From assembly GCF_947499265.1 (NCBI RefSeq), contig NZ_CANMNK010000003.1:248001-312000 (forward strand): a DNA stretch of 64,000 nucleotides, given 5' to 3'. This DNA is from an uncultured Roseobacter sp. (lineage in GTDB: Bacteria > Pseudomonadota > Alphaproteobacteria > Rhodobacterales > Rhodobacteraceae). This document shows positions 14,603 through 26,985 of the stretch, piece after piece. Each line of letters opens with the position of its first letter. The stretch's first letter is position 1. Below the pieces are notes generated by a model. It ran no database searches, had not been told where the DNA came from, and saw only the letters and a program-made list of their open reading frames with translations. The position numbers were made by a program, and so were the translations under genes.

Positions 14603-15915
14603 TGGACTTTCGCAGATCAGATTTCCCCGAGGGCTTCCAGTTTGCCGCAGCAACCTCCAGCTATCAGATCGAAGGGCACAGTTTCGGCGGTGCTGGCAAA
14701 ACCCATTGGGATACCTTTGCCGCCACCCCCGGCAATGTGGTGCGGGCCGAAAACGGCGATATCGCCTGTGACCACTATCACCGGATGGACGAAGACCTCG
14801 ACCTGATGCAGGCGCTAGGGCTGGACGCCTACCGGTTTTCGACCAGCTGGGCGCGGGTGATGCCCGAGGGACGCGGCGCGCCCAATCCGGAAGGCCTCGA
14901 TTTCTATGACCGGTTGGTCGATGGGTTGCTGGCGCGGGGGCTCAACCCGATGGCCACGCTTTACCATTGGGAACTGCCGGTGCCATTGGCCGACCTGGGG
15001 GGATGGCGCAATCCCGACATTTCCCATTGGTTTGCCGATTTCGCCACGGTCATCATGGGACGGATCGGGGATCGCGTGTTCAGCGCAGCCCCCATCAACG
15101 AACCCTGGTGTGTCGGCTGGCTGTCGCATTTCATGGGCCATCATGCGCCCGGTCTGCGCGACATTCGCGCCACCGCACACGCGATGCACCACGTGCTGAC
15201 CGGTCATGGCCGCGCCATTCAGGCGATGCGCGCTCTGGGCGTGAAAAACCTCGGCGCTGTGTGCAACTTTGAGTACGCGCACCCGGTGGATGACACGCCG
15301 GAAGCTGCAAAGGCCGCGCAGCTTTACGATGGCTATTACAACCGCTTCTTTCTGGGTGGGCTCTTCAAAGGCGCCTATCCTGCGGATGTGATGGAAGGCC
15401 TGGCCCCCCATATGCCGAAAGGCTGGCAGGATGATTTTGACCTCATCGGTCAGCCGCTCGACTGGTGCGGTTTGAACTACTACACCTGCAAACGCATCGC
15501 GCCAGTGGATGGCCCTTGGCCCGCGCATGAAGAGGTCAACGGCCCGCTGCCGAAGACCCAGATGGGCTGGGAGATTTATCCCGAGGGGCTGCACCACTTC
15601 CTGACATGGGTGCATGAGACCTACACCAAGGGGCTGCCGCTCTATGTTACGGAAAACGGGATGGCAAATGCGGACCAGATCGATGTGCCGGATCAGGCGC
15701 GGATTGACTACCTGAACGCGCATATCAAGGCCGCACGGCGAGCCATGGCGGAAGGCGTACCGCTGGCGGGCTACACGTTCTGGTCGCTGATGGACAATTA
15801 CGAATGGGCGCTGGGGTATGAAAAACGCTTTGGCTTGATCCACGTGGATTTCGAGACGTTGGCGCGCAGGCCGAAAGCCTCCTATCACGCGCTGGCCAAA
15901 GCGCTCAGGGCTTGA
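14602..15915 (+). CDS. GH1 beta-glucosidase
   Basis: 437 residues, typical GH1 length. The start is the ATG at 14602 overlapping the lacI stop (TGATG); the frame extends 20 codons further inside the regulator gene. N-terminal GH1 signature FAAATSSYQIEG, acid/base E167 in INEPW (the normally preceding T is I), nucleophile E351 in VTENG, and the C-terminal WSLMDNYEWALGYEKRFGL block. No signal peptide, so it hydrolyses imported beta-glucosides in the cytoplasm. Its pairing with an alpha-glucoside importer suggests the system also takes beta-linked glucosides. Confidence 0.93.
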   Translation: MDFRRSDFPEGFQFAAATSSYQIEGHSFGGAGKTHWDTFAATPGNVVRAENGDIACDHYHRMDEDLDLMQALGLDAYRFSTSWARVMPEGRGAPNPEGLDFYDRLVDGLLARGLNPMATLYHWELPVPLADLGGWRNPDISHWFADFATVIMGRIGDRVFSAAPINEPWCVGWLSHFMGHHAPGLRDIRATAHAMHHVLTGHGRAIQAMRALGVKNLGAVCNFEYAHPVDDTPEAAKAAQLYDGYYNRFFLGGLFKGAYPADVMEGLAPHMPKGWQDDFDLIGQPLDWCGLNYYTCKRIAPVDGPWPAHEEVNGPLPKTQMGWEIYPEGLHHFLTWVHETYTKGLPLYVTENGMANADQIDVPDQARIDYLNAHIKAARRAMAEGVPLAGYTFWSLMDNYEWALGYEKRFGLIHVDFETLARRPKASYHALAKALRA

Positions 15916-17183
15916 ACCAGGCGGGCACGCCAAAGGGGGGCTGATCCACGCTCGTCCCGGTGAGGCTGCCCAGAAAAGCAACGATCTGCGCGATTTCGGC
16001 CGCCTCCAGCGCTGGACCGCCGGGCGGGACAAACCGTGCCTGACGCGCCATTTCCCGCCTGTCGGATCGGATGATGAAATCGGTGCCCGCGAGCCAGGCA
16101 ACCTCCGGCAGCTGCGCGTCCCTCGGGCGCCATGCCGCGCGCGCCGCAGCCGGATCAAGGTGGTGCCGTACCATCGCCTCCAGCGTCGGATAGGCCCCGT
16201 TGTGACCATAAGGAGCTGTAAGTGCCACATTGCGCAGCATCGGCGTGCGGAAGGCATAGGCGTCCTCCAACCGATTGCTCTCGGACATCCGGCCGACATC
16301 ACGCGCATAGGGATCAAAGAGACGCGTGCGCCCGGGACCAAAGGCAGGCAACCCAAGCGCGTGGAATTTCTGATCTGTCATCAACGGTCCGGCATGACAG
16401 CTGTCACATGCGGCCTTGCCATAGAAAAGTTCCATGCCCTTTTGCTGCTCATCCGTCAGGGCAGATGTGTCTCCGGCAAGATAGCGATCAAAGGGGCTGT
16501 CGATGCTGGTCCACTCCACGGCCATGAACGCCGCCAGCGTATTGGCAACCTCCACAATCGTGACCTCTTCCGCGGTCTTGATGTGGTCGAAAGCCTGAAC
16601 AAACTGCGGCCCGTAACGCGCATCTGTGCGGACGCGTTTCGCAAGGATCGGCCAGGCATTGTCGATCCGATCATGCACTGCGCCGATGACCTCATTCTCG
16701 CCGGGATTTCCCGCCATCTCGAACTGCGCCACCAACGGAAAGAGCGCCTGTGCCGCCAAAAGCGAATTCAACCCTTTGGGCAGCCATTCCTCCGCCGGGG
16801 AATTGAAGCCGTTGCCAAAAAGATCCGACGTGCTCAGCCGCCCATCATGAAACATAACGTGCACGTCGCGCGCCGAGGTTCCACAGGCCCGGCGCGTTGC
16901 GTGGAATGCGCTTGGCGATGCGCGAGAGGCCTGCGCCCGGCGTCCGGTCCGGCCCCAGCCCCTGCCCGCCTTCGCCGATGCCGAGCGACAGCCCGTCACC
17001 CGTGCCAAAATCCGGGTGATGACAATGCGCGCATGAGATATTCCGGTTGCCGGACAGGATGGTATCGTAGAACAAGGAGTGGCCCAAAGCCGCCTGATCC
17101 CGGTCGAATTGCAGAAAATCGGCAGCGGTCAGGGCGGGTGGCAAATCCCCTGCCCCGGCGGCAGTGGCCAAACAGGAGAACAC
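15905..17183 (-). pseudogene. Frameshifted diheme cytochrome c peroxidase / MauG-like protein
   Basis: Two halves of one protein lie in different frames. The upstream half (to about 16868) gives ATAAGAGDLPPALTAADFL, heme site 1 (ISCAHCHHPDFGTGDG) and RNAPGLWNLGAR, then runs out of frame to a stop near 16845. The rest continues in another frame as DVHVMFHDGRLSTSDLFG, heme site 2 (ACDSCHAG), and GHNGAYPTLEAM, to a stop at 15905. The break is in a CGCGCG tract at 16867-16872 and is repaired by adding two bases or removing one. The family has an uninterrupted N-L-G-A-R-D-x-x-V-M-F-H-D-G run here. The 5' end is also odd: no ATG or good ribosome site; the best start is a GTG at 17183, giving a shortened signal peptide. 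Either a genuine pseudogene or a sequence error. Confidence 0.8.
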
Positions 17184-17189
17184 GACACC

Positions 17190-17660
17190 ATGCGCGCGAT
17201 ACTTCTTGCCTTTACGCTGCTGGCAGGCCCCGCCTGGGCCGAAATCGAAGAGGCGCGCGACATGATGGAAGACGGCCGATTTGAGGAAGCCTATCAGGCG
17301 CTTTGGCCCGCTGCGCGGTCCGGCAATGCGGATGCCGAGGAGCTGATCGGCGTCATGTATGCCATGGGCCTTGGCGTGCCGCGCGACGATACCCGTGCGT
17401 TCGAATGGTACCTGCGCTCGGCGATGAAGGGGCATCCGGGCGCGCAATCGGGCGTTGGCTGGTACTATGAGGTCGGGCGCGGCCTGCCGAGCGTCGATCT
17501 GGTGCGCGCCTATATGTGGTACACCCTGTCGGCCATCGGCGGCGATCCGGACGCGGCGATCAGCCTTGAGGAAGTCGTCAAGAAAATGACCGCGGAAGAG
17601 ATCGAGAAGGCGCATATCCTGGTGGCTGACTACAAGGTCTGGATGTATCCGTTTCGGTGA
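17190..17660 (+). CDS. Sel1-repeat (TPR-like) periplasmic protein
   Basis: 156 residues. The ATG at 17190 follows AGGAGA and opens a clear signal peptide (MRAILLAFTLLAGPAWAE). The mature part has Sel1-like repeats (DAEELIGVMYAMGLGVPRDDTRAFEWYLRSA; AQSGVGWYYEVGRGLPSVDLVRAYMWYTLSA). Such proteins are protein-protein interaction scaffolds, often in envelope stress or secretion; no specific role can be assigned. Its start is only 6 bp from the putative start of the divergent, broken peroxidase gene, so the two 5' ends and promoters overlap, which is unusual. Confidence 0.82.
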   Translation: MRAILLAFTLLAGPAWAEIEEARDMMEDGRFEEAYQALWPAARSGNADAEELIGVMYAMGLGVPRDDTRAFEWYLRSAMKGHPGAQSGVGWYYEVGRGLPSVDLVRAYMWYTLSAIGGDPDAAISLEEVVKKMTAEEIEKAHILVADYKVWMYPFR

Positions 17661-17696: not shown

Positions 17697-18755
17697 TCAG
17701 TTCAGGTCTGCCGCGCGGGCGTCGCCCACTTCGGCTTCGGCTTCGGCAACGGCAGTTGCGAGCGCGTCAAAGATTTCCTCACCCCGGCCCACATTGCTTT
17801 TGAACCAGTCAAACACCGGTGCAGCGCCTTCTTTGAACGCCACTTTTTGCTCGGGCGTCGGGACATAGAGATCCCCGCCCTCAGCCACGAACTGCTCATA
17901 GGCTTCGATGGATTTGCGCTTGGGTGAGGCGAATGTCGCCTGCTGCAAGGCATAGAAACCATCGACCACAACACGGCGCATGTCTTCCGGCATCTCCAGG
18001 AAGCGCGCGTTGTTCATCCACCACAGCGCGCCCATATAGGCATGGCCGTCCAGGGTGACGTATTTCAGGCCGGCATCGGGGAATTTCATGCCCATGATAT
18101 CGGTGATGCCGTTCTTGGAGCCTTCGACAACGCCGGTCTGGAACGACGTGAAAAGTTCCGGCCATGGGATCGGCGTCGGGGCAGCCCCCAGCGCCTTGAC
18201 CAATTCCTGCGGCAGGTCGGCGACAACCGTGCGGATTTTCAGACCTTCCATATCACTGGGCTCGGCCACGCGGCGCTTGGTATTGGCAAAGTTGCGCCAG
18301 CCGCCCGTGTTGCCAATGGTCATCAACCGGATGGTCCCACCGGAATCTTCCAGCGCCATGTCGCGCATCTTGCGGGTGAAATCACCTGACAACACGGTTT
18401 CCGCGATGCGGTCGTCCGCCATCAAATACGGCAGGTCGAGCACCTGAACGTAAGGGAAAATGCCGGACGCTCCGCCCGAGGTGGAAACGTAGACGTCAAT
18501 TGTGCCATCGGCCACGCCCTGCAGGCATTCCGCACCATTGCCGCAAAGCTGCGTGCCGATGAAAAGCTCAACCTCGATGGCCCCGTTAGAGGCCGCTTCG
18601 ACGTAGTTCTTGAAAACAACCAGACCGTCATAGTCCTCGTCGTTTTCATTGGAGTTGGCCGTGGCCCGGATCGTGTAATCCGCAGCGGACGCAGCCAGCG
18701 CCGTGCCCGCGAGCATCGCCGCCACGGTCAAGGTTTTCAGTGTTTTTTTAAGCAT
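17697..18755 (-). CDS. dctP: TRAP transporter substrate-binding protein (DctP family)
   Basis: Periplasmic receptor of 352 residues with signal peptide MLKKTLKTLTVAAMLAGTALAASA. DctP-family features include the conserved ligand-binding Arg in MEGLKIRTVVADL, the PIPWPELFTSFQTGVVEG block and the GALWWMNNARF stretch. In DctP proteins that Arg salt-bridges an anionic group, usually a carboxylate. Last gene of a six-gene leftward operon with the matching permeases and an FMNH2-dependent monooxygenase set, so the cargo is probably the anionic substrate of that pathway (a sulfonate is the leading guess). Confidence 0.92.
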   Translation of the reverse strand: MLKKTLKTLTVAAMLAGTALAASAADYTIRATANSNENDEDYDGLVVFKNYVEAASNGAIEVELFIGTQLCGNGAECLQGVADGTIDVYVSTSGGASGIFPYVQVLDLPYLMADDRIAETVLSGDFTRKMRDMALEDSGGTIRLMTIGNTGGWRNFANTKRRVAEPSDMEGLKIRTVVADLPQELVKALGAAPTPIPWPELFTSFQTGVVEGSKNGITDIMGMKFPDAGLKYVTLDGHAYMGALWWMNNARFLEMPEDMRRVVVDGFYALQQATFASPKRKSIEAYEQFVAEGGDLYVPTPEQKVAFKEGAAPVFDWFKSNVGRGEEIFDALATAVAEAEAEVGDARAADLN

Positions 18756-18778
18756 TTAGCTTTCTCCCTGTGAATTGG

Positions 18779-20068
18779 TTAATTCGCAAAACCCGTCAGA
18801 CGCGGGACTGTCATAGATATGGCCGGTATGTAGGTGATCAGAAAAATCACCACGATTTCCACCGCCAGAAACGGCAGGATTGCCTTGGAAATGGTCTCCA
18901 CCCGTTCGCCGGAGACCGACGAGGCGACAAAGAGCACCAGCCCCATGGGCGGCGTCGCCAGCCCTACGGTCAGGTTCACGCTCATGATGATCGCGAAGTG
19001 GATCGGATCGACGCCAAGACTGACGAAGATGGGTCCAAGGATCGGACCCAGAATGATGATCGCGGGCCCTGCATCCAGGAACATGCCGACGATGAAGAGC
19101 AGCAGGTTGATCAGGAACAGCAGGATCAGCGGATCGCTGGTCAGACCCAGCACAAACTCAGCCATGGCTTCGGGCGCGTGGCTGAGGCTGACCACGGTCT
19201 TGAAGGCCATCGCCGCCCCCACCAGCAGCAGCACCACGGCCGAGGTGATCCCCGCGCGGTTCAGCACATCCGGCAGGTCGCCGATCTTCAGCGTGCGCAT
19301 GACAAAAAGCCCGATGAAGAGCGCATAGGCCACGGCAATGGCGGCGGCCTCGGTCGGGGTGAAGACCCCCGCCAGAATGCCGCCCAGAATGATCACGGGG
19401 GTCATCAGCGGGAAAAACGCCTTGAGGCTGGCCTGCCCCCGCTCGCCCCAGGAGTGCTTCTTGGTGGCGACGGGGAAGTCGTATTTATCAGCTTGAAACT
19501 TGACCATCAACATCAAGCCAAGGCCCACCATCACCCCCGGCACGATGCCCGCGAGAAAGAGCGCCGCGACACTTTCTCCCATCACATAGGCATAGATGAT
19601 CATGATGCCCGAGGGCGGGATGATCGGGCCAATCACCGAACTGGCGGCGGTGATGGCGGCGGCAAACCGGCGGGTATAGCCCTGCTTTTCCATTGCCGGG
19701 ATCAGCATCGACCCCAGTGCCGAGGTATCGGCCACCGCCGAGCCCGACAGCCCGGCAAAGAGCATCGAGGACAGGATGTTCACATGCGCCAGACCGCCAC
19801 GAAAATGGCCCATCATCGCCTGGCTGAATTCCACCAGACGCATGGTGATGCCACCCCGGTTCATCAGCTCACCCGCGAGCATGAAGAAAGGGATCGCCAT
19901 GAGAGGAAAGCTGTCCATCCCATTGTAAAGATTGCGATAAAGCAATGTGATATCACGTTCCTGCCCGTTCAGCCACAACAGGATGCCCGGAGCGGCCAGC
20001 AGGCCAAAAAAGACCGGCAGACCGATCATCAGGAAGAGCAGGAACAGTGGGAGGAACCAGACCAGCAT
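18779..20068 (-). CDS. dctM: TRAP transporter large permease (DctM family)
   Basis: 429 residues, about 12 hydrophobic segments, typical DctM length. Characteristic stretches are NGMDSFPLMAIPFFMLAGELMNRGGIT, SSVIGPIIPPSGIMIIYAYV and FTPTEAAAIAVAYALFIG. It is the sodium-dependent translocating subunit. Its start coincides with the dctQ stop at 20068; dctP follows after 23 bp. Confidence 0.95.
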   Translation of the reverse strand: MLVWFLPLFLLFLMIGLPVFFGLLAAPGILLWLNGQERDITLLYRNLYNGMDSFPLMAIPFFMLAGELMNRGGITMRLVEFSQAMMGHFRGGLAHVNILSSMLFAGLSGSAVADTSALGSMLIPAMEKQGYTRRFAAAITAASSVIGPIIPPSGIMIIYAYVMGESVAALFLAGIVPGVMVGLGLMLMVKFQADKYDFPVATKKHSWGERGQASLKAFFPLMTPVIILGGILAGVFTPTEAAAIAVAYALFIGLFVMRTLKIGDLPDVLNRAGITSAVVLLLVGAAMAFKTVVSLSHAPEAMAEFVLGLTSDPLILLFLINLLLFIVGMFLDAGPAIIILGPILGPIFVSLGVDPIHFAIIMSVNLTVGLATPPMGLVLFVASSVSGERVETISKAILPFLAVEIVVIFLITYIPAISMTVPRLTGFAN

Positions 20069-20658
20069 TATTCAGCTCCCACTTGTTCTTCGAGGGTGAT
20101 GGCAGGCAAGCGGTCCTCACCTCCCATCATTTTGACAATAGCGCGCAGGATCAGTTCCACGTTCACCGAAATCAGCAGGGTCACCCCCACCAGCAACGAG
20201 GCCATCATCCAGCTGCGCGGCACGCGCAACCAGGTCTCGAACGCAATGTCAGTGGGAACGTAGAGCGATGCGGTGGCAAATTTCCCAGCGAAGCCCGTCA
20301 CTTCCGACCATCCGATCTGAACCGCCACAATCAGGACGCCAAGGCTCAGAAACAGCAATACCAGCGTGATCAGCGCGCCAATGCGCGCGGGCAGCAACCG
20401 CACCAGCGTGTCGATTGCAACGAAGCCGCCGCGCCGGAACGCGGTGGGCGCCATCAGCCCGGTCATCCACAGCATGCAGAACCGCGCCGCCTCGTCCGGC
20501 CAGGGCAGCGCGCTGTTCAAAACATATCGGTAAAACACCTGAATGAGGATCGCCACGACCATCGCGGCCACAGCAAACACACCAATGGCCCGGCCCAGCG
20601 TCAGCAAAGCCTCGTTGACCAGCCGGAGCGGTGTCATCACCGCCAGCAATGCCCCCAT
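20068..20658 (-). CDS. dctQ: TRAP transporter small permease (DctQ family)
   Basis: About 196 residues with four membrane segments (AVAAMVVAILIQVFYRYVL; LITLVLLFLSLGVLIVAVQI and others) and the DctQ signature YVLNSALPWPDEAARFCMLWM. The start at 20658 (MGALLAVMTPL) is chosen because GGGAGGAGG precedes it by 8 bp; the frame is open 21 codons further. It stands 81 bp after the flavin reductase stop and is translationally coupled to dctM. Confidence 0.92.
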   Translation of the reverse strand: MGALLAVMTPLRLVNEALLTLGRAIGVFAVAAMVVAILIQVFYRYVLNSALPWPDEAARFCMLWMTGLMAPTAFRRGGFVAIDTLVRLLPARIGALITLVLLFLSLGVLIVAVQIGWSEVTGFAGKFATASLYVPTDIAFETWLRVPRSWMMASLLVGVTLLISVNVELILRAIVKMMGGEDRLPAITLEEQVGAE

Positions 20659-20739
20659 GTGCGGAGCCTCCTCCCTTGCGCCCGGGTATTCCGGATCGCG
20701 ACGCGCAGGTTTTCCCTGCACGCTTCATTCGTTGGCCTT

Positions 20740-21264
20740 TTAGGCCTCTTTGTCAAACGCTCTGAACCGGCCCTGGCAAAAAATCAGCGCATCCCCCTCC
20801 CGGGACGCGGCGGACAGGACACGGCCCAGGACAATCGCATGATCGCCGGCGTCGTGGATTTCATGTGTGCTGCATTCAAAACGCGCCAGACAGTCATTCA
20901 ACAGCGGCACGCCCTGTGCGTTGATCTCCACCGCCAGCCCGTCAAAGGCCTGGCCGGAGCGGGCAAAGCCCAAGGCGATGTCTTCCTGCTCCGCGGCCAT
21001 GACGTGGATCGCAAAATGCTGCGCTTGGGTAAAATATGCATAGCGGCTGGACGATTTGGCCGGGCTCCACATCACCAGCGGCGGGTCCATGGAAATGCTG
21101 GAAAACGAATTGGCCGTCATACCAATGGGGCCTTGCGCGGTTTGCGCCGTCACCACAGTCACCCCGGTCGAGAATTGCCCAAGCGCATCGCGAAACTGTC
21201 GCTGCGTCTCAGGCCCGGGCATGAAGGACCGCATTTGCGCCATATGTGCTGTTCCATCTGCCAT
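20740..21264 (-). CDS. Flavin reductase of a two-component monooxygenase (SmoA-like)
   Basis: About 174 residues of the HpaC/flavin-reductase-like FMN-binding family: REFRDALGQFSTGVTVVT-type opening (RQFRDALGQFSTGVTVVTAQ), MTANSFSSISMDPPLVM for flavin binding, and FAIHVMAAEQEDIALGFA. It supplies reduced FMN to a partner oxygenase; the SsuD-like gene two places upstream is the obvious partner. The ATG at 21264 overlaps the aldo/keto reductase stop (TGATG) and has GGAGGT 6 bp upstream. Gene content with its neighbours matches smoA of the sulfoquinovose monooxygenase pathway; that match is inferred from family and synteny. Confidence 0.88.
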   Translation of the reverse strand: MADGTAHMAQMRSFMPGPETQRQFRDALGQFSTGVTVVTAQTAQGPIGMTANSFSSISMDPPLVMWSPAKSSSRYAYFTQAQHFAIHVMAAEQEDIALGFARSGQAFDGLAVEINAQGVPLLNDCLARFECSTHEIHDAGDHAIVLGRVLSAASREGDALIFCQGRFRAFDKEA

Positions 21265-22154
21265 CACGCGACCTCCTGTCCGTTGGCGGCCTCGTAGAGT
21301 TCAAACCACGTCTGGCGGTCCATCTCTACCTTCAGGGCGTCACTGAATGTTGCAATCCGCGACAGCGTATTGGTGCCCATCACAGGCAGGATACCGGCGG
21401 GATGCGCCAGCAACCACGCGACCGCCACCGCCGCCCGGTCCACGCCTTGTGCGGCGGCAACCTCATCCATCTTGCCGGTCACTGCGCTGTTTTCTGTCAT
21501 CAGGCTGCCCCCGCCGAGCGGCGACCATGCCATCGGGCTGATCCGGTGTTGCTGCAGATGCGCCAGGTCGCCGTTGGTGAAACTGTCGCGCGCCGCCAGC
21601 GACAGTTCAATCTGATTGGTCACCAATCGGTTGCTCATCGCTGATTGCAGCAGGTCCCAGTCCCACGGGCGGAAGTTCGACACACCCGCAGCGCGGATTT
21701 TACCGCTCTGGATTAATGCGTCCAGCGCGCCGCCGGTCTCCGCAGCATTCATCAGCGGGTCGGGGCGATGGATGAGCAGCAGATCAATGTGGTCGATGCC
21801 CATATAGGTCAATGAGGCGTCAACCGAGGCCTGAATATGCGCCGCAGAGGTGTCATAGTATTTCACCCGCCGGTCGCTGTATTTGCCAATGGGTGCTACG
21901 ATATCGCATTTCGTCACGATCTCGAGCTGATCACGCAGACCGGGGCTTTGTTTGAGACAGGTGCCCAGGACTTCTTCGGCGACGTAGCCGCCATAGATAT
22001 CGGCCTGATCCATCGTGGTGATGCCCTGAGACAGGCAGGCGTCAATCTTTGCGTGCACATGCCCGGGCGACGTGTCCGCATCATCCGCCAGACGCCACAT
22101 GCCATAGACAATGCGGCTGAAGTTCAGTGTTTCGGAAAGATAGGCGCGGTCCAT
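21264..22154 (-). CDS. Aldo/keto reductase (SmoB-like)
   Basis: 296 residues, a YdhF-type aldo/keto reductase. TIM-barrel landmarks: GITTMDQADIYGGY with the catalytic Asp and Tyr, IVTKCDIV with the Lys, IDLLLIHRPDPL with the His, GVSNFRPWDWDLLQSAM, and the cofactor region PVMGTNTLSRI. The ATG at 22154 overlaps the stop of the monooxygenase gene (TGATG); the frame is open 26 codons further into that gene. In the sulfoquinovose monooxygenase pathway an enzyme of this type (SmoB) reduces 6-oxo-glucose to glucose after desulfonation. That role is inferred here from its place between a flavin reductase and an SsuD-like oxygenase. Confidence 0.88.
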   Translation of the reverse strand: MDRAYLSETLNFSRIVYGMWRLADDADTSPGHVHAKIDACLSQGITTMDQADIYGGYVAEEVLGTCLKQSPGLRDQLEIVTKCDIVAPIGKYSDRRVKYYDTSAAHIQASVDASLTYMGIDHIDLLLIHRPDPLMNAAETGGALDALIQSGKIRAAGVSNFRPWDWDLLQSAMSNRLVTNQIELSLAARDSFTNGDLAHLQQHRISPMAWSPLGGGSLMTENSAVTGKMDEVAAAQGVDRAAVAVAWLLAHPAGILPVMGTNTLSRIATFSDALKVEMDRQTWFELYEAANGQEVA

Positions 22155-23308
22155 CAGCGACGGTCTCCTGCGGCGAGCGGTGTGTTCGGGGCGGCGGCGG
22201 GCACGCGCCCGTAGGCTTCCGGCAAGGAGCATGTCTTGAGGTGCGGCATGACCAGGCGGCCAAAGTGCTCTGCCTCGTCGATATGCGGGTAGCCAGAGAA
22301 AATGAACGCCCGGATGCCCATTTTCTGGTAAGCTTCGATCTCGGAGAGCACCTGATCAGCGGAGCCCACAAGTGCTGCGCCACAGCCCGAGCGCGCGCGC
22401 CCAACGCCAGTCCAGAGGTGTGGCTCCACATAGCCGAATTCATCCGCGATATCGCGGTTCTTGGTCTGATGCGACACGCCCAGCGAGGTTGCATCCAGCG
22501 CCCGTTCGCGGATTTTGCGGCCATAGTCGTCATCCAGCTTAGAGACAATGTAATCGGCGTATTCCTTGGCCTCCGCTTCGGTGTCCCGCACGATCATGTG
22601 GACGCGCAGCCCATAGTCCAGCGTCCGGCCCTTTTCAGCCGCCCGTGCATGGACGGCCTGCATCCGACCTGCGATGGCGTCTTTGGGTTCGGGCCACATC
22701 AGATAAACGTCACAATGCTCTGCACAGAGATCAAGGGCAGCGGGCGAATACCCCCCGAAATAGAGCAAGGGTCCGCCGGTCTGATAGGGCCGCGCCGGGT
22801 CCGACGTGACTTTGTCTAGCTGATAGACCTCGCCCTGATGATCGATTTCATCCCGCGTCCAGGCCTGTTTCAGGATCTCGACAACTTCGCGGGATCGCTG
22901 ATAGCGGTAGCTGCTCTCCGCCTTCTCCCCCGGGAAGTCCGAGCTGATGATGTTCACGGTCAAGCGGCCTTCGAGCATGTGATCCAGCGTCGCAATGGTG
23001 CGGGCCAGCATGATCGGTTGCATCTCGCCGCAGCGCACCGCCGCCAGCAGATTGATCTTTTCCGTGATCGGGGCACAGCCCGCGACAAAGCTCAGTGTGT
23101 CCTGCCCGACCTGATAGGAAGAAGGGCACAGGATGTTGCGAAAGCCCTGCGCTTCGGCAGTTTTCACAATGTCCGAGCAGTGCTTCCAGGAGGAGCGCAG
23201 ATCGCCATCCGGCACCCCGAGAAACTGGTAGTCATCCGAGCAAAGCGCCGAAAACCAAGATACTTCTGCCGCATCCAAATCGGCTGAGGTCACGGGCACG
23301 ATCGTCAT
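22154..23308 (-). CDS. FMNH2-dependent alkanesulfonate monooxygenase-like protein (SmoC/SsuD family, LLM class)
   Basis: 384 residues, bacterial luciferase-like fold. Compared from memory with E. coli SsuD, several active-site residues are kept: R235 and H237 in GLRVHMIV (SsuD R226/H228), R306 in GVGRARSG (SsuD R297), and Y340 in FSGYPH (SsuD Y331). SsuD Cys54 aligns with G68 (SSYQVGQD), suggesting another substrate. It would cleave a C-S bond of a sulfonate with O2 and FMNH2, releasing sulfite and an aldehyde. First gene of a six-gene operon with an aldo/keto reductase, a flavin reductase and a TRAP transporter; divergent from a GntR regulator with a tandem repeat between. An amine- or other carbon-oxidising LLM enzyme is not excluded. 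Confidence 0.87.
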   Translation of the reverse strand: MTIVPVTSADLDAAEVSWFSALCSDDYQFLGVPDGDLRSSWKHCSDIVKTAEAQGFRNILCPSSYQVGQDTLSFVAGCAPITEKINLLAAVRCGEMQPIMLARTIATLDHMLEGRLTVNIISSDFPGEKAESSYRYQRSREVVEILKQAWTRDEIDHQGEVYQLDKVTSDPARPYQTGGPLLYFGGYSPAALDLCAEHCDVYLMWPEPKDAIAGRMQAVHARAAEKGRTLDYGLRVHMIVRDTEAEAKEYADYIVSKLDDDYGRKIRERALDATSLGVSHQTKNRDIADEFGYVEPHLWTGVGRARSGCGAALVGSADQVLSEIEAYQKMGIRAFIFSGYPHIDEAEHFGRLVMPHLKTCSLPEAYGRVPAAAPNTPLAAGDRR

Positions 23309-23363
23309 ATATTTCCCTTTGCACGAACTGTGGTGATTTCCTCTTGAATAGCATTCACAAACT

Positions 23364-23385
23364 GGTAGATCAATGGTGTATCAAT
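23364..23385. promoter_or_regulatory. Tandem 11-bp repeat in divergent monooxygenase/GntR promoter
   Basis: GGTAGATCAAT (23364-23374) is followed directly by GGTGTATCAAT (23375-23385), 9 of 11 bases identical, and then by TTACC, which forms an imperfect inverted repeat with the first GGTA. The unit is one helical turn long and lies between the monooxygenase start (23308) and the GntR start (23410). It is a good candidate operator for the HutC-type regulator; binding is inferred. Confidence 0.5.
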
Positions 23386-23409
23386 TTACCAACCCGGCCG
23401 ATCCCACCC

Positions 23410-24117
23410 ATGGTCCTGCCCCCGCAACACAGCAACGCGCTGCCCAAATACATCCAGCTGAGCGAACTGCTGGCCCGGGATATCGATGCCGGCCGGCTGA
23501 TGGACGGCGAACGCCTGCCGCCCGAGCGGGAGATGGCGGTGTCGCTGGGCACCTCCATCGGCACGCTGCGCAAAGCGCTGGCCAATCTGGAAAGCAAGGG
23601 CCTGCTGCGCCGGGTGCAGGGATCGGGCAATTACATTCAGAAGTCGGCGAAGGCCGCCAGTTTCTATGCCATGTTCCGGCTTGAACTGCTGTCGGGCGGT
23701 GGCCTGCCGTCAGCGCAGGTACTGGCGGTTGACGTGATGGACAAGCCCGATGATTTGCCCGCCTTTGGCAGTGCCGCGCGCGCCACCCGGATGCGCCGCA
23801 GAAGATACCTGAATGATGTAGCAATTGCCGTTGAAGAGATTTGGCTCGACGCCAGCGTGGGCGAACTGAGCGCCGACAGGCTGTCCGATTCCCTCTACCA
23901 GACCTATCTGAAACAACTGCATTTCTGGATCACCCGCGCCGAAGACCGCGTCAGCATTGGCGCCCTGCCCCCTTGGACCCCTGAGGATTTCGGCATAGGA
24001 GGCGCGGCCTGCGGTTACATCGAAAGGTTCAGCTGGGCTGACCAGCCCTTGGCAATTGAGTTTTCGCGCACCTGGTTTGACACGACAAAAGCCGTCTATG
24101 TGCAGCGCTTGAAGTAA
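23410..24117 (+). CDS. GntR-family regulator, HutC/UTRA type
   Basis: About 235 residues. Winged helix at about 10-80 (LPKYIQLSELLARDIDAGRL, LPPEREMAVSLGTSIGTLRKALANLESKGLLRRVQGSGNYI) followed by a UTRA-type effector domain (RRRRYLNDVAIAVEEIWLD, GYIERFSWADQPLAIEFSRTWFD). The start at 23410 (MVLPPQHSN) fits the family; the open frame further upstream overlaps the divergent gene and is not plausible. Likely a repressor of the divergent monooxygenase/TRAP operon and of its own unit, released by the substrate or an intermediate. The next gene follows after 13 bp. Confidence 0.9.
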   Translation: MVLPPQHSNALPKYIQLSELLARDIDAGRLMDGERLPPEREMAVSLGTSIGTLRKALANLESKGLLRRVQGSGNYIQKSAKAASFYAMFRLELLSGGGLPSAQVLAVDVMDKPDDLPAFGSAARATRMRRRRYLNDVAIAVEEIWLDASVGELSADRLSDSLYQTYLKQLHFWITRAEDRVSIGALPPWTPEDFGIGGAACGYIERFSWADQPLAIEFSRTWFDTTKAVYVQRLK

Positions 24118-24130
24118 GGACAGAATAAGA

Positions 24131-25237
24131 ATGAGCAAAGTCACACGCTACGGCATGATCGGGTGCGGTATGATGGGCCAGGAGCACCTGAAGAATATCG
24201 CACTGCTGCCGGACACGGCCGTCACTGCGGTCTTCGAGCCGGACGCGGGCATGTGCGACATCGCGCGGGGACTGGCGCCGCAAGCGCGGTTTGTTCCCTC
24301 CTTGGAGGCGCTGCTCGCCGAGGAGGCGCTGGATTGTCTTGTCATCACCAGCCCCAATTTCCGCCACGCCGAGCAGATCATCGAGATCGCCGCAAATCGC
24401 CCCCTGCCCCTGCTCGTTGAAAAACCGCTGTTGACGGATCCGATGGACATTCCGCGCGTCACAGCAGCAGTGGCCGCCTATCCCGCCCCCATCTGGGTCG
24501 CGATGGAGTATCGTTACATGCCGCCCATCGCCGCCCTGCTTGATGAGGTCGAGACGGTCACCGGTGGGGTCAAGATGCTCTCGATCCGCGAGCACCGCTT
24601 CCCCTTCTTGCACAAAGTCGGCAACTGGAACCGGTTCAACCATCAGACCGGCGGCACATTCGTTGAAAAATGCTGCCACTTCTTTGATCTGATGCGCTTG
24701 ATGGTTGGCGAAAATCCGACCCGGGTGATGGCAAGTGCCGCGCAATCCGTGAACCATTTGGATGAGAGCTACGCCGGTGCCGTGCCCGATATCCTCGACA
24801 ATGGCTACGTCATCGTGGATTTTGAGGGCGGCGCGCGCGCGATGCTGGAATTGTGCATGTTTGCCGAAGGCGCGCGCTATCAGGAAACAATCGCCGCTGT
24901 CGGACCTGCAGGCAAGATCGAGGCCTTTGTCCCCGGGCCCACGCGCTTCTGGCCCGACGATCTGGGCCCGGCGCCGACACCGATTCTGGAAACCAGCCCA
25001 CGCAGCCCGAAACGCCCTGTGACGCGCCCCATTCCGGTCGATCCGAAACTATTGGCCGCCGGAGATCACAACGGCTCCACCTTCTACCAGCATCAGGGGT
25101 TTCTGGAATTGCTGCGCGGTGAGCGTGCGCGCCCCGAGGTGACTTTCGAAGATGGCCTTTGGGCCGTGCGCATGGGCATGGCGGCACAGCAATCCGCGCT
25201 GACGGGACAGGCGGTGCCCCTTGGTGCCATGTCGTGA
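24131..25237 (+). CDS. Gfo/Idh/MocA-family oxidoreductase
   Basis: 368 residues. N-terminal Rossmann fold (YGMIGCGMMGQEHLKNIALLP), the family EKP motif in LVEKPLLT, and the GGTFVEKCCHFFDLMRLM block with the catalytic-region His. These NAD(P)-dependent enzymes oxidise or reduce sugars, inositols and sugar acids, or act as hydrolases via transient oxidation. It is co-transcribed with the GntR gene (13 bp gap) and probably with the Fe/2OG oxygenase downstream. Substrate unknown; a sugar or sugar sulfonate would fit the neighbours. Confidence 0.88.
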   Translation: MSKVTRYGMIGCGMMGQEHLKNIALLPDTAVTAVFEPDAGMCDIARGLAPQARFVPSLEALLAEEALDCLVITSPNFRHAEQIIEIAANRPLPLLVEKPLLTDPMDIPRVTAAVAAYPAPIWVAMEYRYMPPIAALLDEVETVTGGVKMLSIREHRFPFLHKVGNWNRFNHQTGGTFVEKCCHFFDLMRLMVGENPTRVMASAAQSVNHLDESYAGAVPDILDNGYVIVDFEGGARAMLELCMFAEGARYQETIAAVGPAGKIEAFVPGPTRFWPDDLGPAPTPILETSPRSPKRPVTRPIPVDPKLLAAGDHNGSTFYQHQGFLELLRGERARPEVTFEDGLWAVRMGMAAQQSALTGQAVPLGAMS

Positions 25238-25320
25238 TGAAGCCATTTGGATGACGCATTTCACGTTGACGGGGGTGGTGCATTGATCATTGTGCTGGTC
25301 AAGATGTGAAAGGATCCGCC

Positions 25321-26109
25321 ATGCTGCCGCCGATTGATCTTGAACGCTACCCGCTGCACGCCCCGGAAACAGCGGGTTATGAGGCCCTTATCGACCGCTG
25401 CAAGGCCGAGCTGGCGCGTGACGGCATGTTCAACCTCGAAGGTTTCATGCGTCCGGATGCGATTGCCGAAGCCGTCGCACAGGCGGCCCCCCGGCTGACC
25501 CCCGAGGAAGCCTTCGTGCATGCGCGTCGGCACAACATCTACTTCAAACAGATGCCGGAATTGCCCGCGGACCACCCCGCCTTGCAGGAAGTGGAGACGC
25601 GCAATCTGACCCTCTGTGCCGACCAGTGCGAAGGCTCGCCCGTTGACACCATCTATTCCTGGCAGCCCTTTGCCGACTTTCTGGCCCGCACGATGGATCT
25701 TGATGCGCTCTTTCAAATGGACGACCCCTTGGCCCGTTTCAACGTGATGGGATATCCCGAAGGCTGGGGGTTGAACTGGCACTTCGACCGATCGCATTTC
25801 ACCACGACGCTCTTGCTGCAGGCGCCCTTGGAGGGCGGCGAATTTGTCTATCGGTCTGATCTGCGCAGCGACGATGACCCGAATTTCGACGGGGTGGCTG
25901 CGCTGCTGCGTGGGGATGATCCTGAGGTTAAAACGCTTACGTCTGCCGCAGGAACACTCAATGTTTTCAAGGGCAAGAATACGGCGCACCGCGTCGCACC
26001 CGTCGTGGGGGACGTCCCGCGTATTATTGCCGTGCTTGGGTATTATGACAGGCCGGGCGTTGCCTTTTCGAAAGAAGAGCTGCTCGGTTTTTACGGCAGA
26101 GCAAGCTGA
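25321..26109 (+). CDS. Fe(II)/2-oxoglutarate oxygenase, HalD/BesD-like but with an HxD triad
   Basis: 262 residues, cupin/DSBH fold. Iron ligands H154 and D156 in NWHFDRSHF and H223 in NTAHRVAPV, with R234 in VPRIIAVLGYYD as the 2-oxoglutarate anchor. Overall shape (FNVMGYPEGWGLNWHFD, LEGGEFVYRSDLR, GTLNVFKGKNTAHRV) resembles the HalD/BesD family of amino-acid radical halogenases, but those have Gly in place of the Asp; the intact carboxylate points to hydroxylation or C-X cleavage rather than halogenation. The start at 25321 follows AAAGGAT; five codons upstream are also open. It lies 83 bp after the MocA-type gene. Confidence 0.8.
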   Translation: MLPPIDLERYPLHAPETAGYEALIDRCKAELARDGMFNLEGFMRPDAIAEAVAQAAPRLTPEEAFVHARRHNIYFKQMPELPADHPALQEVETRNLTLCADQCEGSPVDTIYSWQPFADFLARTMDLDALFQMDDPLARFNVMGYPEGWGLNWHFDRSHFTTTLLLQAPLEGGEFVYRSDLRSDDDPNFDGVAALLRGDDPEVKTLTSAAGTLNVFKGKNTAHRVAPVVGDVPRIIAVLGYYDRPGVAFSKEELLGFYGRAS

Positions 26110-26985
26110 TCAGGGCGCAATGAGCTGCACCCCTGGAATGCGGGCGATGGCAAAGACATCCTCCTCATAGGTCTGCGTCATCTCTTCGACCAATTCTTCG
26201 GTCCAGCCCGGCATATCCAGCTCTTCTTCGATCGCGTCTTCGATGGCAAATTTGTCGAGAAACGCCATCATCACCCGTCGCTGTTGTATTTCGTTGATAT
26301 TGGGGTGTTTCCCGAGGTAAGCCAGAAACCTTTGCATGCCGTCTTTGCGCATGATGTCGCGCAACAGATCGAACCCGCCTACCACCTTCTCTCCGTGCTC
26401 CAGCCCCACGATTTCGCGAATGATCTGCGCCCAGATCAGGGGGGCATCCTCGTTGCACCACACAGTAATGCTGATCTGGGGAACCGCCTCGCGTATCCGC
26501 AAAAGCGTATCCGACCAGCGCACCGCGCGCGGATCAACACCTCCCATGAAATCGGCAAGTTCCGAGGCTGGGGATTTTTCGAAAACCGCTGGCAAAAACG
26601 TCGCCGGATTGCGCAGGGCCATGAAAAGCTCAATCTCGTCATGCTGAAAAATCTGCGACATGTAGACGAGCCGTTCGGGCGCCTTGGGATACAACAACCC
26701 TTGCCGAACCACGGTTCTCGGAGCGCCAAATAAATGTGCATCAGACAGTAGGACACGATCGGCTTGTTCGTTGTCGAGGATCGCGTCCAGCAAAACTTCT
26801 CGTGCGTTTTCAGCAGCTTCCGAGGATGCCAGCGCAGACATTATTGCCCGCAAAAGCCTGCGGTATTTTCCCGGTCCGGGCACCGAAACGCCGCGCTCGG
26901 CGAAGGCCTCGTTGTTACGCAAGAGGCATTTCATCAGACGCTCTTCTTCGGTGAAATGAGCGCCCGTGTGGAAAACCAGTTGCAT
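26110..26985 (-). CDS. Hypothetical protein with degenerate sulfotransferase-like N-terminus
   Basis: 291 residues, no signal peptide or membrane segment. The opening (VFHTGAHFTEEERLMKCLLRNNEAFAERGV) matches in shape the start of sulfotransferase-family proteins (H-x-G-x-H-K-T-x-T-T-x-x-Q-x-x-L-x-x-N), but the phosphate-binding K-T-x-T-T is replaced by F-T-E-E-E. Further matches are the LSDAHLFG and FMALRNPATFLPAVFE stretches, reminiscent of the 3'-phosphate-binding R and S region. Its stop abuts that of the BesD-like gene (convergent). Probably a non-enzymatic or divergent relative; function unknown. Confidence 0.7.
   Translation of the reverse strand: MQLVFHTGAHFTEEERLMKCLLRNNEAFAERGVSVPGPGKYRRLLRAIMSALASSEAAENAREVLLDAILDNEQADRVLLSDAHLFGAPRTVVRQGLLYPKAPERLVYMSQIFQHDEIELFMALRNPATFLPAVFEKSPASELADFMGGVDPRAVRWSDTLLRIREAVPQISITVWCNEDAPLIWAQIIREIVGLEHGEKVVGGFDLLRDIMRKDGMQRFLAYLGKHPNINEIQQRRVMMAFLDKFAIEDAIEEELDMPGWTEELVEEMTQTYEEDVFAIARIPGVQLIAP

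Follow-up and report, generated by a model that had tools for sequence, protein, structure and literature searches.

A sulfoquinovose monooxygenase locus with a GH188 sulfoquinovosidase and a probable TRAP importer in an uncultured Roseobacter

The window analysed here is a stretch of 64,000 nucleotides from an uncultured Roseobacter sp. (assembly GCF_947499265.1, contig NZ_CANMNK010000003.1, positions 248,001 to 312,000 of the forward strand), and its positions 17697 to 26109 hold a predicted locus for the catabolism of sulfoquinovose (SQ). Taken as a whole, this region is best explained, with a probability of about 0.8, as a sulfoquinovose monooxygenase (sulfo-SMO) locus in which a tripartite ATP-independent periplasmic (TRAP) transporter takes up SQ and SQ glycosides, a cytoplasmic sulfoquinovosidase (SQase) of family GH188 cleaves the glycosides and the SmoABC enzymes desulfonate SQ to glucose. 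The identities of the enzymes rest on strong sequence evidence, by which the locus is of the kind already described in the Roseobacter clade; what is added here is the TRAP transporter as the likely importer of SQ or its glycosides, common to two types of gene cluster. According to text passages of PMC10755693, annual production of SQ amounts to about 10 billion tons. Roseobacters belong to the marine organisms that consume it, and the route by which SQ and SQ glycosides enter the cell is a gap. A previous, sequence-only reading of the same DNA had already proposed oxygenolytic SQ desulfonation served by a TRAP importer, and this part stands. Two points need correction: a gene read as a Gfo/Idh/MocA dehydrogenase is the GH188 SQase, and an Fe(II)/2-oxoglutarate (Fe/2OG) oxygenase gene counted with the locus is a bystander.

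In the proposed pathway, the TRAP receptor and permease would import SQ and SQ glycosides such as SQ-glycerol, and the cytoplasmic GH188 enzyme would cut the glycoside using NAD+. SmoA would supply reduced flavin mononucleotide (FMNH2) to SmoC, which would split the C-S bond to give sulfite and 6-oxo-glucose, the latter being reduced to glucose by SmoB; the GntR protein probably controls the locus. All nine genes are intact open reading frames. The minus strand carries, in the order of transcription, the luciferase-like monooxygenase (LLM), the aldo/keto reductase and the flavin reductase, followed by dctQ, dctM and dctP:

17697 to 18755, minus strand: dctP, TRAP receptor (PF03480, 171 bits; signal peptide by eye), candidate SQ/SQ-glycoside receptor
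18779 to 20068, minus strand: dctM, TRAP large permease (PF06808, 405 bits)
20068 to 20721, minus strand: dctQ, TRAP small permease (PF04290, 78 bits)
20740 to 21264, minus strand: smoA-type flavin reductase (Flavin_Reduct, 131 bits), TGATG overlap with smoB
21264 to 22154, minus strand: smoB-type aldo/keto reductase (454 bits to 7bbz/7bby), TGATG overlap with smoC
22154 to 23308, minus strand: smoC-type FMNH2-dependent SQ monooxygenase (77 % identity over 383 amino acids to PDB 7olf and 7oh2)
23398 to 24117, plus strand: GntR-UTRA regulator (PF00392 and PF07702), divergent from smoC
24131 to 25237, plus strand: predicted GH188 NAD-dependent sulfoquinovosidase, sqgA type (619 bits to 8zn9; no signal peptide by eye)
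25321 to 26109, plus strand: Fe/2OG oxygenase of HalD/BesD fold (PF23169, 33 bits), a neighbour outside the conserved locus

Bit scores of the monooxygenase are 696 and 695 against the PDB chains 7olf and 7oh2, which we take to be SmoC (the PDB listing gives generic names), as against 206 bits for 7jv3, presumably MsuD, and 190 bits for 1nqk/1m41, taken here for E. coli SsuD. It shares 77 % of its residues with each of the first two chains, 34 % with 7jv3, 33 % with E. coli SsuD (sequence from the MG1655 record) and 25-26 % with three other LLM proteins found in the same genome. A quick tree, small at 20 rows, splits 7jv3 and SsuD off from the window protein with full support (SH-aLRT 100); the three other LLM proteins sit on branches too long for placement. 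Alignment equates Arg226, His228, Arg297 and Tyr331 of SsuD (mature numbering) with Arg235, His237, Arg306 and Tyr340 of the window protein, and these residues are kept as had been claimed. Cys54 of SsuD is indeed lost, but its reported replacement by Gly depends on the alignment: it stands opposite Val67 when the two are aligned directly and opposite Gly68 when aligned via 7jv3, the gap being movable. Since 7olf and 7oh2 carry letters identical to those of the window protein in this stretch, the lost Cys is, judged by these chains, typical of SmoC rather than a deviation from it.

The aldo/keto reductase gives 454 bits with 7bbz/7bby, which we likewise take to be SmoB, and 218 bits with the next PDB chain; it is inferred to be of SmoB type, predicted to convert 6-oxo-glucose to glucose. 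TGATG overlaps are present at both the SmoC/SmoB and the SmoB/SmoA junctions, and the flavin reductase partner, which fits SmoA, is in place. Passages of PMC13372026 use the joint presence of SmoC and SmoB as the criterion for a sulfo-SMO pathway, and in the window the two genes are adjacent and overlapping.

In Agrobacterium the canonical SQ importer is of the ATP-binding cassette (ABC) type and the SQase belongs to GH31, whereas the window has a TRAP transporter and a GH188 enzyme in these roles. The operon-coupled SmoC/SmoB/SmoA trio is the same as in the sulfo-SMO (or sulfo-ASMO) pathway of Agrobacterium and Novosphingobium (passages of PMC12890257), and the same chemistry is expected. The sulfo-SMO clusters with GH188 described in text portions of PMC10755693 share with the window the Roseobacter clade, the GH188 gene and the lack of GH31; those portions do not discuss the importer, which may be drawn in the figures or supplement.

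The SQase assignment is supported along the whole protein. The Gfo/Idh/MocA protein scores 619 bits to 8zn9 and 374 and 373 bits to 8qc2 and 8qc3, which are FlSqgA and ArSqgA (passages of PMC10755693), and its alignment to the latter two runs from residues 3/4 to 364/366 of 368, i.e., full-length homology to SqgA. The catalytic and sulfonate-binding residues given there for ArSqgA, K107, Y136, R166, L170, K172, E189, H193 and H321, correspond to K98, Y127, R156, L160, K162, E179, H183 and H313 of the window protein, all eight mapped positions being kept; a ninth, Glu163 in the same passages, falls one place off in the mapping, with a conserved Glu nearby (E154). By these residues the gene is a GH188 NAD-dependent sulfoquinovosidase, and the predicted SQase function is thus present in the locus. 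The proposal that the SQase is missing, and with it the step from there to a free sulfonated sugar as the cargo, is rejected. What does hold is the absence of GH31: a PF01055 profile search of the whole genome returned no match, while 6 of 14 control genomes were positive. The same passages describe GH188 as near-universal in the sulfo-SMO clusters of Roseobacters, bacteria that, they note, had been reported to lack GH31. As no signal peptide is seen by eye, GH188 would be expected to act in the cytoplasm, so that a glycoside substrate must be imported.

Conservation of the block was followed in three sets: the best 80 of at least 585 SmoC relatives in a scan of the collection, some of whose loci end at contig ends; a family sample of 149 genomes, in which each genus of the family is represented once; and, from the genus itself, 19 genomes. 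At a threshold of E ≤ 1e-90, SmoC occurs in 61 of the 149 family genomes and 17 of the 19 genus genomes. The best 80 loci all contain SmoC and SmoB and mostly GntR (79), GH188 (75), SmoA (72), DctQ (63), DctM (62) and DctP (59), commonly laid out as GntR-GH188 divergent from smoCBA-dctQMP. The block is thus common in relatives, with the exception of the Fe/2OG gene, present in only two loci, and the idea that a TRAP transporter is unusual in this setting can be dismissed given DctP in 59 of 80. The sequence-only reading had regarded the GntR, Gfo/Idh/MocA and Fe/2OG genes as foreign to the known smo cluster. This fails for GH188, which is published there (passages of PMC10755693), and for GntR-GH188, the usual arrangement among the 80 loci; the Fe/2OG gene is present beside the locus but lies outside its conserved part. 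Plasmid records of Ruegeria sp. TM1040, Rhizobium sp. SL42 and Roseivivax sp. THAF197b carry this block in their annotation as well. Two family genomes (L215 and L225) keep GntR, GH188 and the TRAP genes with no SmoC seen, one having SmoA and SmoB and the other neither.

The transporter beside the trio was recognised from the outset as DctPQM, and the Pfam scan finds all three subunits together, a complete TRAP set. TRAP importers for sulfonates are known from the same clade, HpsKLM for 2,3-dihydroxypropane-1-sulfonate (DHPS) and IseKLM for isethionate (passages of PMC4334477); their cargo is C2-C3, whereas that proposed for the window transporter is a sulfo-sugar or its glycoside. Genome context indicates that it probably carries SQ or SQ glycosides. 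Orthologues of DctP, taken at an identity of at least 68 % (one further match of 37 % was dropped), occur in 54 of the 149 family genomes and lie within 10 kb of SmoC in 37, of GH188 in 46 and of either in 48. Five of the other six have GH188 on another contig (three with SmoC too) and one has neither at the thresholds used. The 88 genomes that lack SmoC contain DctP and GH188 together in 13 cases, DctP only in one, GH188 only in one and neither in 73.

The same receptor recurs in a second type of cluster, found in 10 of 20 fetched regions, where the gene names come from a Pfam scan of one example each. All ten regions contain a GH188 gene 44-54 % identical to that of the window, a PfkB kinase and a Fucose_iso_C protein; DctP (72-86 % identical) is present in nine, the tenth region meeting a contig end, together with a DeoC/LacD aldolase in nine, a 2-hydroxyacid dehydrogenase in nine and an aldehyde dehydrogenase in four. 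This set is read, from its gene content, as a non-SMO cluster resembling the second sulfoglycolytic Embden-Meyerhof-Parnas pathway (sulfo-EMP2), because GH188 has also been published in sulfo-EMP clusters (passages of PMC10755693) and because of the isomerase-like match. Such clusters have an isomerase, a kinase and an aldolase in place of the monooxygenase trio; they share GH188 with the window and, in the family studied here, the TRAP transporter too. Since importer and SQase are what the two cluster types have in common, the importer seems to be tied to the substrate rather than to the pathway. A branch with support 100 sets the ten EMP-type rows apart from all others in the GH188 tree. In quick DctP trees, the nine sulfo-EMP2-like receptors are scattered, with three changes (five unclassed rows in the tree being uncounted) or five changes once those rows are removed; repeated exchange of the transporter is not supported, as a single clade of these DctPs is not rejected (p-AU 0.322). 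A single TRAP receptor paired with GH188 across two pathways makes the question of uptake directly testable by binding assays and knockouts. Among the literature listings and passages covered, none names sulfo-sugars or their glycosides as the cargo of a TRAP importer; the main texts of PMC12890257 and PMC13372026 have no word beginning with TRAP.

Several observations weigh against uptake of SQ and its glycosides by this transporter. The SQ importers named in passages of PMC12421959 are of ABC type. The TRAP genes are not obligatory, since only 37 of the 61 SmoC genes in the family sample have DctP within 10 kb and 21 of the best 80 SMO loci are without it (17 after setting aside four short contigs that still show DctQ). 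The genomes counted, one for each genus of a single family, share ancestry, so that the test values for the pairing of DctP with GH188 overstate independence. The only NCBIfam match of the isomerase example from the second cluster type is sulfoquinovose isomerase at 279 bits, against a cut-off of 700, and the structure model of DctP is poor (mean pLDDT 73.9), too weak for a pocket or fold search. A transporter that imports only free SQ, with GH188 acting on glycosides that enter by another route, is accorded a minor but real share of the probability: joint regulation alone could account for the link between TRAP and GH188, and 22 of 74 GH188 genomes lack this DctP. Yet DctP and GH188 occur together in 13 of the 15 SmoC-less genomes that have either, and free SQ is described as a very minor species (passages of PMC10755693). 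That the locus serves some other C2-C6 sulfonate is very improbable; DctP is indeed only distantly related to every solved TRAP receptor (best 122 bits), but the sulfonate-binding residues of GH188, the 77 % identity to SmoC chains and the fact that 56 of the 61 family-sample genomes with SmoC have an SQase gene within 10 kb of it all speak for SQ.

In a further alternative, the Fe/2OG enzyme would contribute to a variant pathway, for example by acting as another desulfonating oxygenase, like that of the sulfoquinovose dioxygenase (sulfo-SDO) pathway, or by tailoring SQ. The gene does follow GH188 on the same strand after a gap of 83 bases and, among the genomes examined, adjoins the locus in the window, in R. 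insulae and in one uncultured Roseobacter. Its AlphaFold model is of high confidence (pLDDT 96) with HalB (7u6i best), HalD and BesD as nearest PDB folds, and all 32 aligned sequences keep the ligands of iron and 2-oxoglutarate, His154, Asp156, His223 and Arg234. In the radical halogenases BesD and HalD, Gly or Ala replaces the metal-binding Asp; because Asp156 is present and invariant in all 32, the predicted site is of hydroxylase type. SqoD of sulfo-SDO belongs to the TauD family, whereas the window protein matches only PF23169. The gene was not found in 15 of the 19 genus genomes, although 17 have SmoC, and none of 17 relatives (54-63 % identical) in other family-sample genomes is positioned beside SmoC, one of them, on a 4-kb contig, being impossible to judge. 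These relatives often have other company: in 16 regions around them, a LysR-type cluster occurs in nine genomes and an M24-type cluster in nine, the one example of each identified being GcvA-like and DddP-like (376 bits against a DddP cut-off of 600), respectively. A role in the pathway is rejected on these grounds as improbable, though a shade less so than the service of another sulfonate, and the gene is a lineage-specific bystander outside the conserved locus. HalD-like Fe/2OG, GcvA-like LysR and DddP-like M24 proteins form a recurring trio, and a DddP dimethylsulfoniopropionate lyase is encoded elsewhere in the same genome (contig 3, 77656-78984; 889 bits, above the cut-off of 600).

Two further genes accompany the receptor gene:

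17190 to 17660, plus strand: Sel1-repeat protein (PF08238, scan on 17178-17657; signal peptide by eye), convergent with dctP
15905 to 17105, minus strand: MauG-like di-haem protein gene, frame broken (two matches in different frames, meeting at 16851-16861)

Near DctP, the Sel1 protein is found in 45 and the MauG-like protein in 42 of the 59 SMO loci with DctP, and each in 0 of the 21 without it (four of these on short contigs). The Sel1 protein also recurs by the TRAP genes in the sulfo-EMP2-like loci displayed. With a cut of at least 54 % identity, set after the match list had been seen, the MauG-like subgroup occurs in 37 family genomes, all 37 of which have DctP, within 10 kb in 30 and farther away or on another contig in seven, where some assemblies are broken; 17 genomes have DctP without a subgroup member. 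Relatives of 43-52 % identity are widespread. These data raise the possibility, a tentative one, that Roseobacters possess an interchangeable sulfoquinovoside uptake module, consisting of the TRAP transporter, often with the secreted Sel1 protein and the MauG-like enzyme, and GH188, that serves two chemically unrelated pathways (SMO and sulfo-EMP2-like) and in which the MauG-like enzyme would perform a periplasmic step. If so, the TRAP transporter would import a sulfo-sugar or glycoside, a class of cargo unnamed in the literature passages found. Our estimate for this module was lowered slightly because two genomes that narrowly miss the cut, G097 (50 %, 446 bits) and G025 (52 %, 440 bits), break the association of the MauG-like protein with DctP by having no such receptor; the G025 copy starts less than 3 kb from its SmoC. 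The MauG-like gene may be dispensable in Roseobacter, since the window copy is frame-broken near 16.85 kb and that of R. insulae is interrupted by a stop; no internal stop was seen in the copies checked in three other loci (L180, L184 and L185). DctP itself was considered as the target of modification by the MauG-like enzyme, but none of its residues tracks the presence of the latter in the manner of a modified site. Comparison of 60 DctPs with and 16 without the enzyme (four unclear ones were omitted, and for 11 rows the status comes from whole-genome results) found no Trp, Tyr or Cys kept only in the former; of the DctPs without the enzyme, 16 of 16 have the conserved Trp and Cys and 94 % have Tyr42. 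Judged by title, no relevant literature linking sulfoquinovose with MauG was found.

As to the fate of sulfite, no gene for it was recognised within the locus and PF03601, a candidate family for sulfite exporters, was not found in the genome, which has four matches to PF00174 (sulfite-oxidase type). The plasmid blocks of TM1040 and SL42 have a putative sulfate exporter gene downstream. A plasmid of Spirosoma oryzicola (Bacteroidota) carries a SmoC-like gene, 51 % identical, that adjoins genes for SusC/SusD, an amidohydrolase, an amino acid permease and a sulfite dehydrogenase. Directly after the locus, at 26110-26985 of the window, lies a gene for a protein without a Pfam match, which also adjoins GH188 or the Fe/2OG gene in several Roseobacter genomes.

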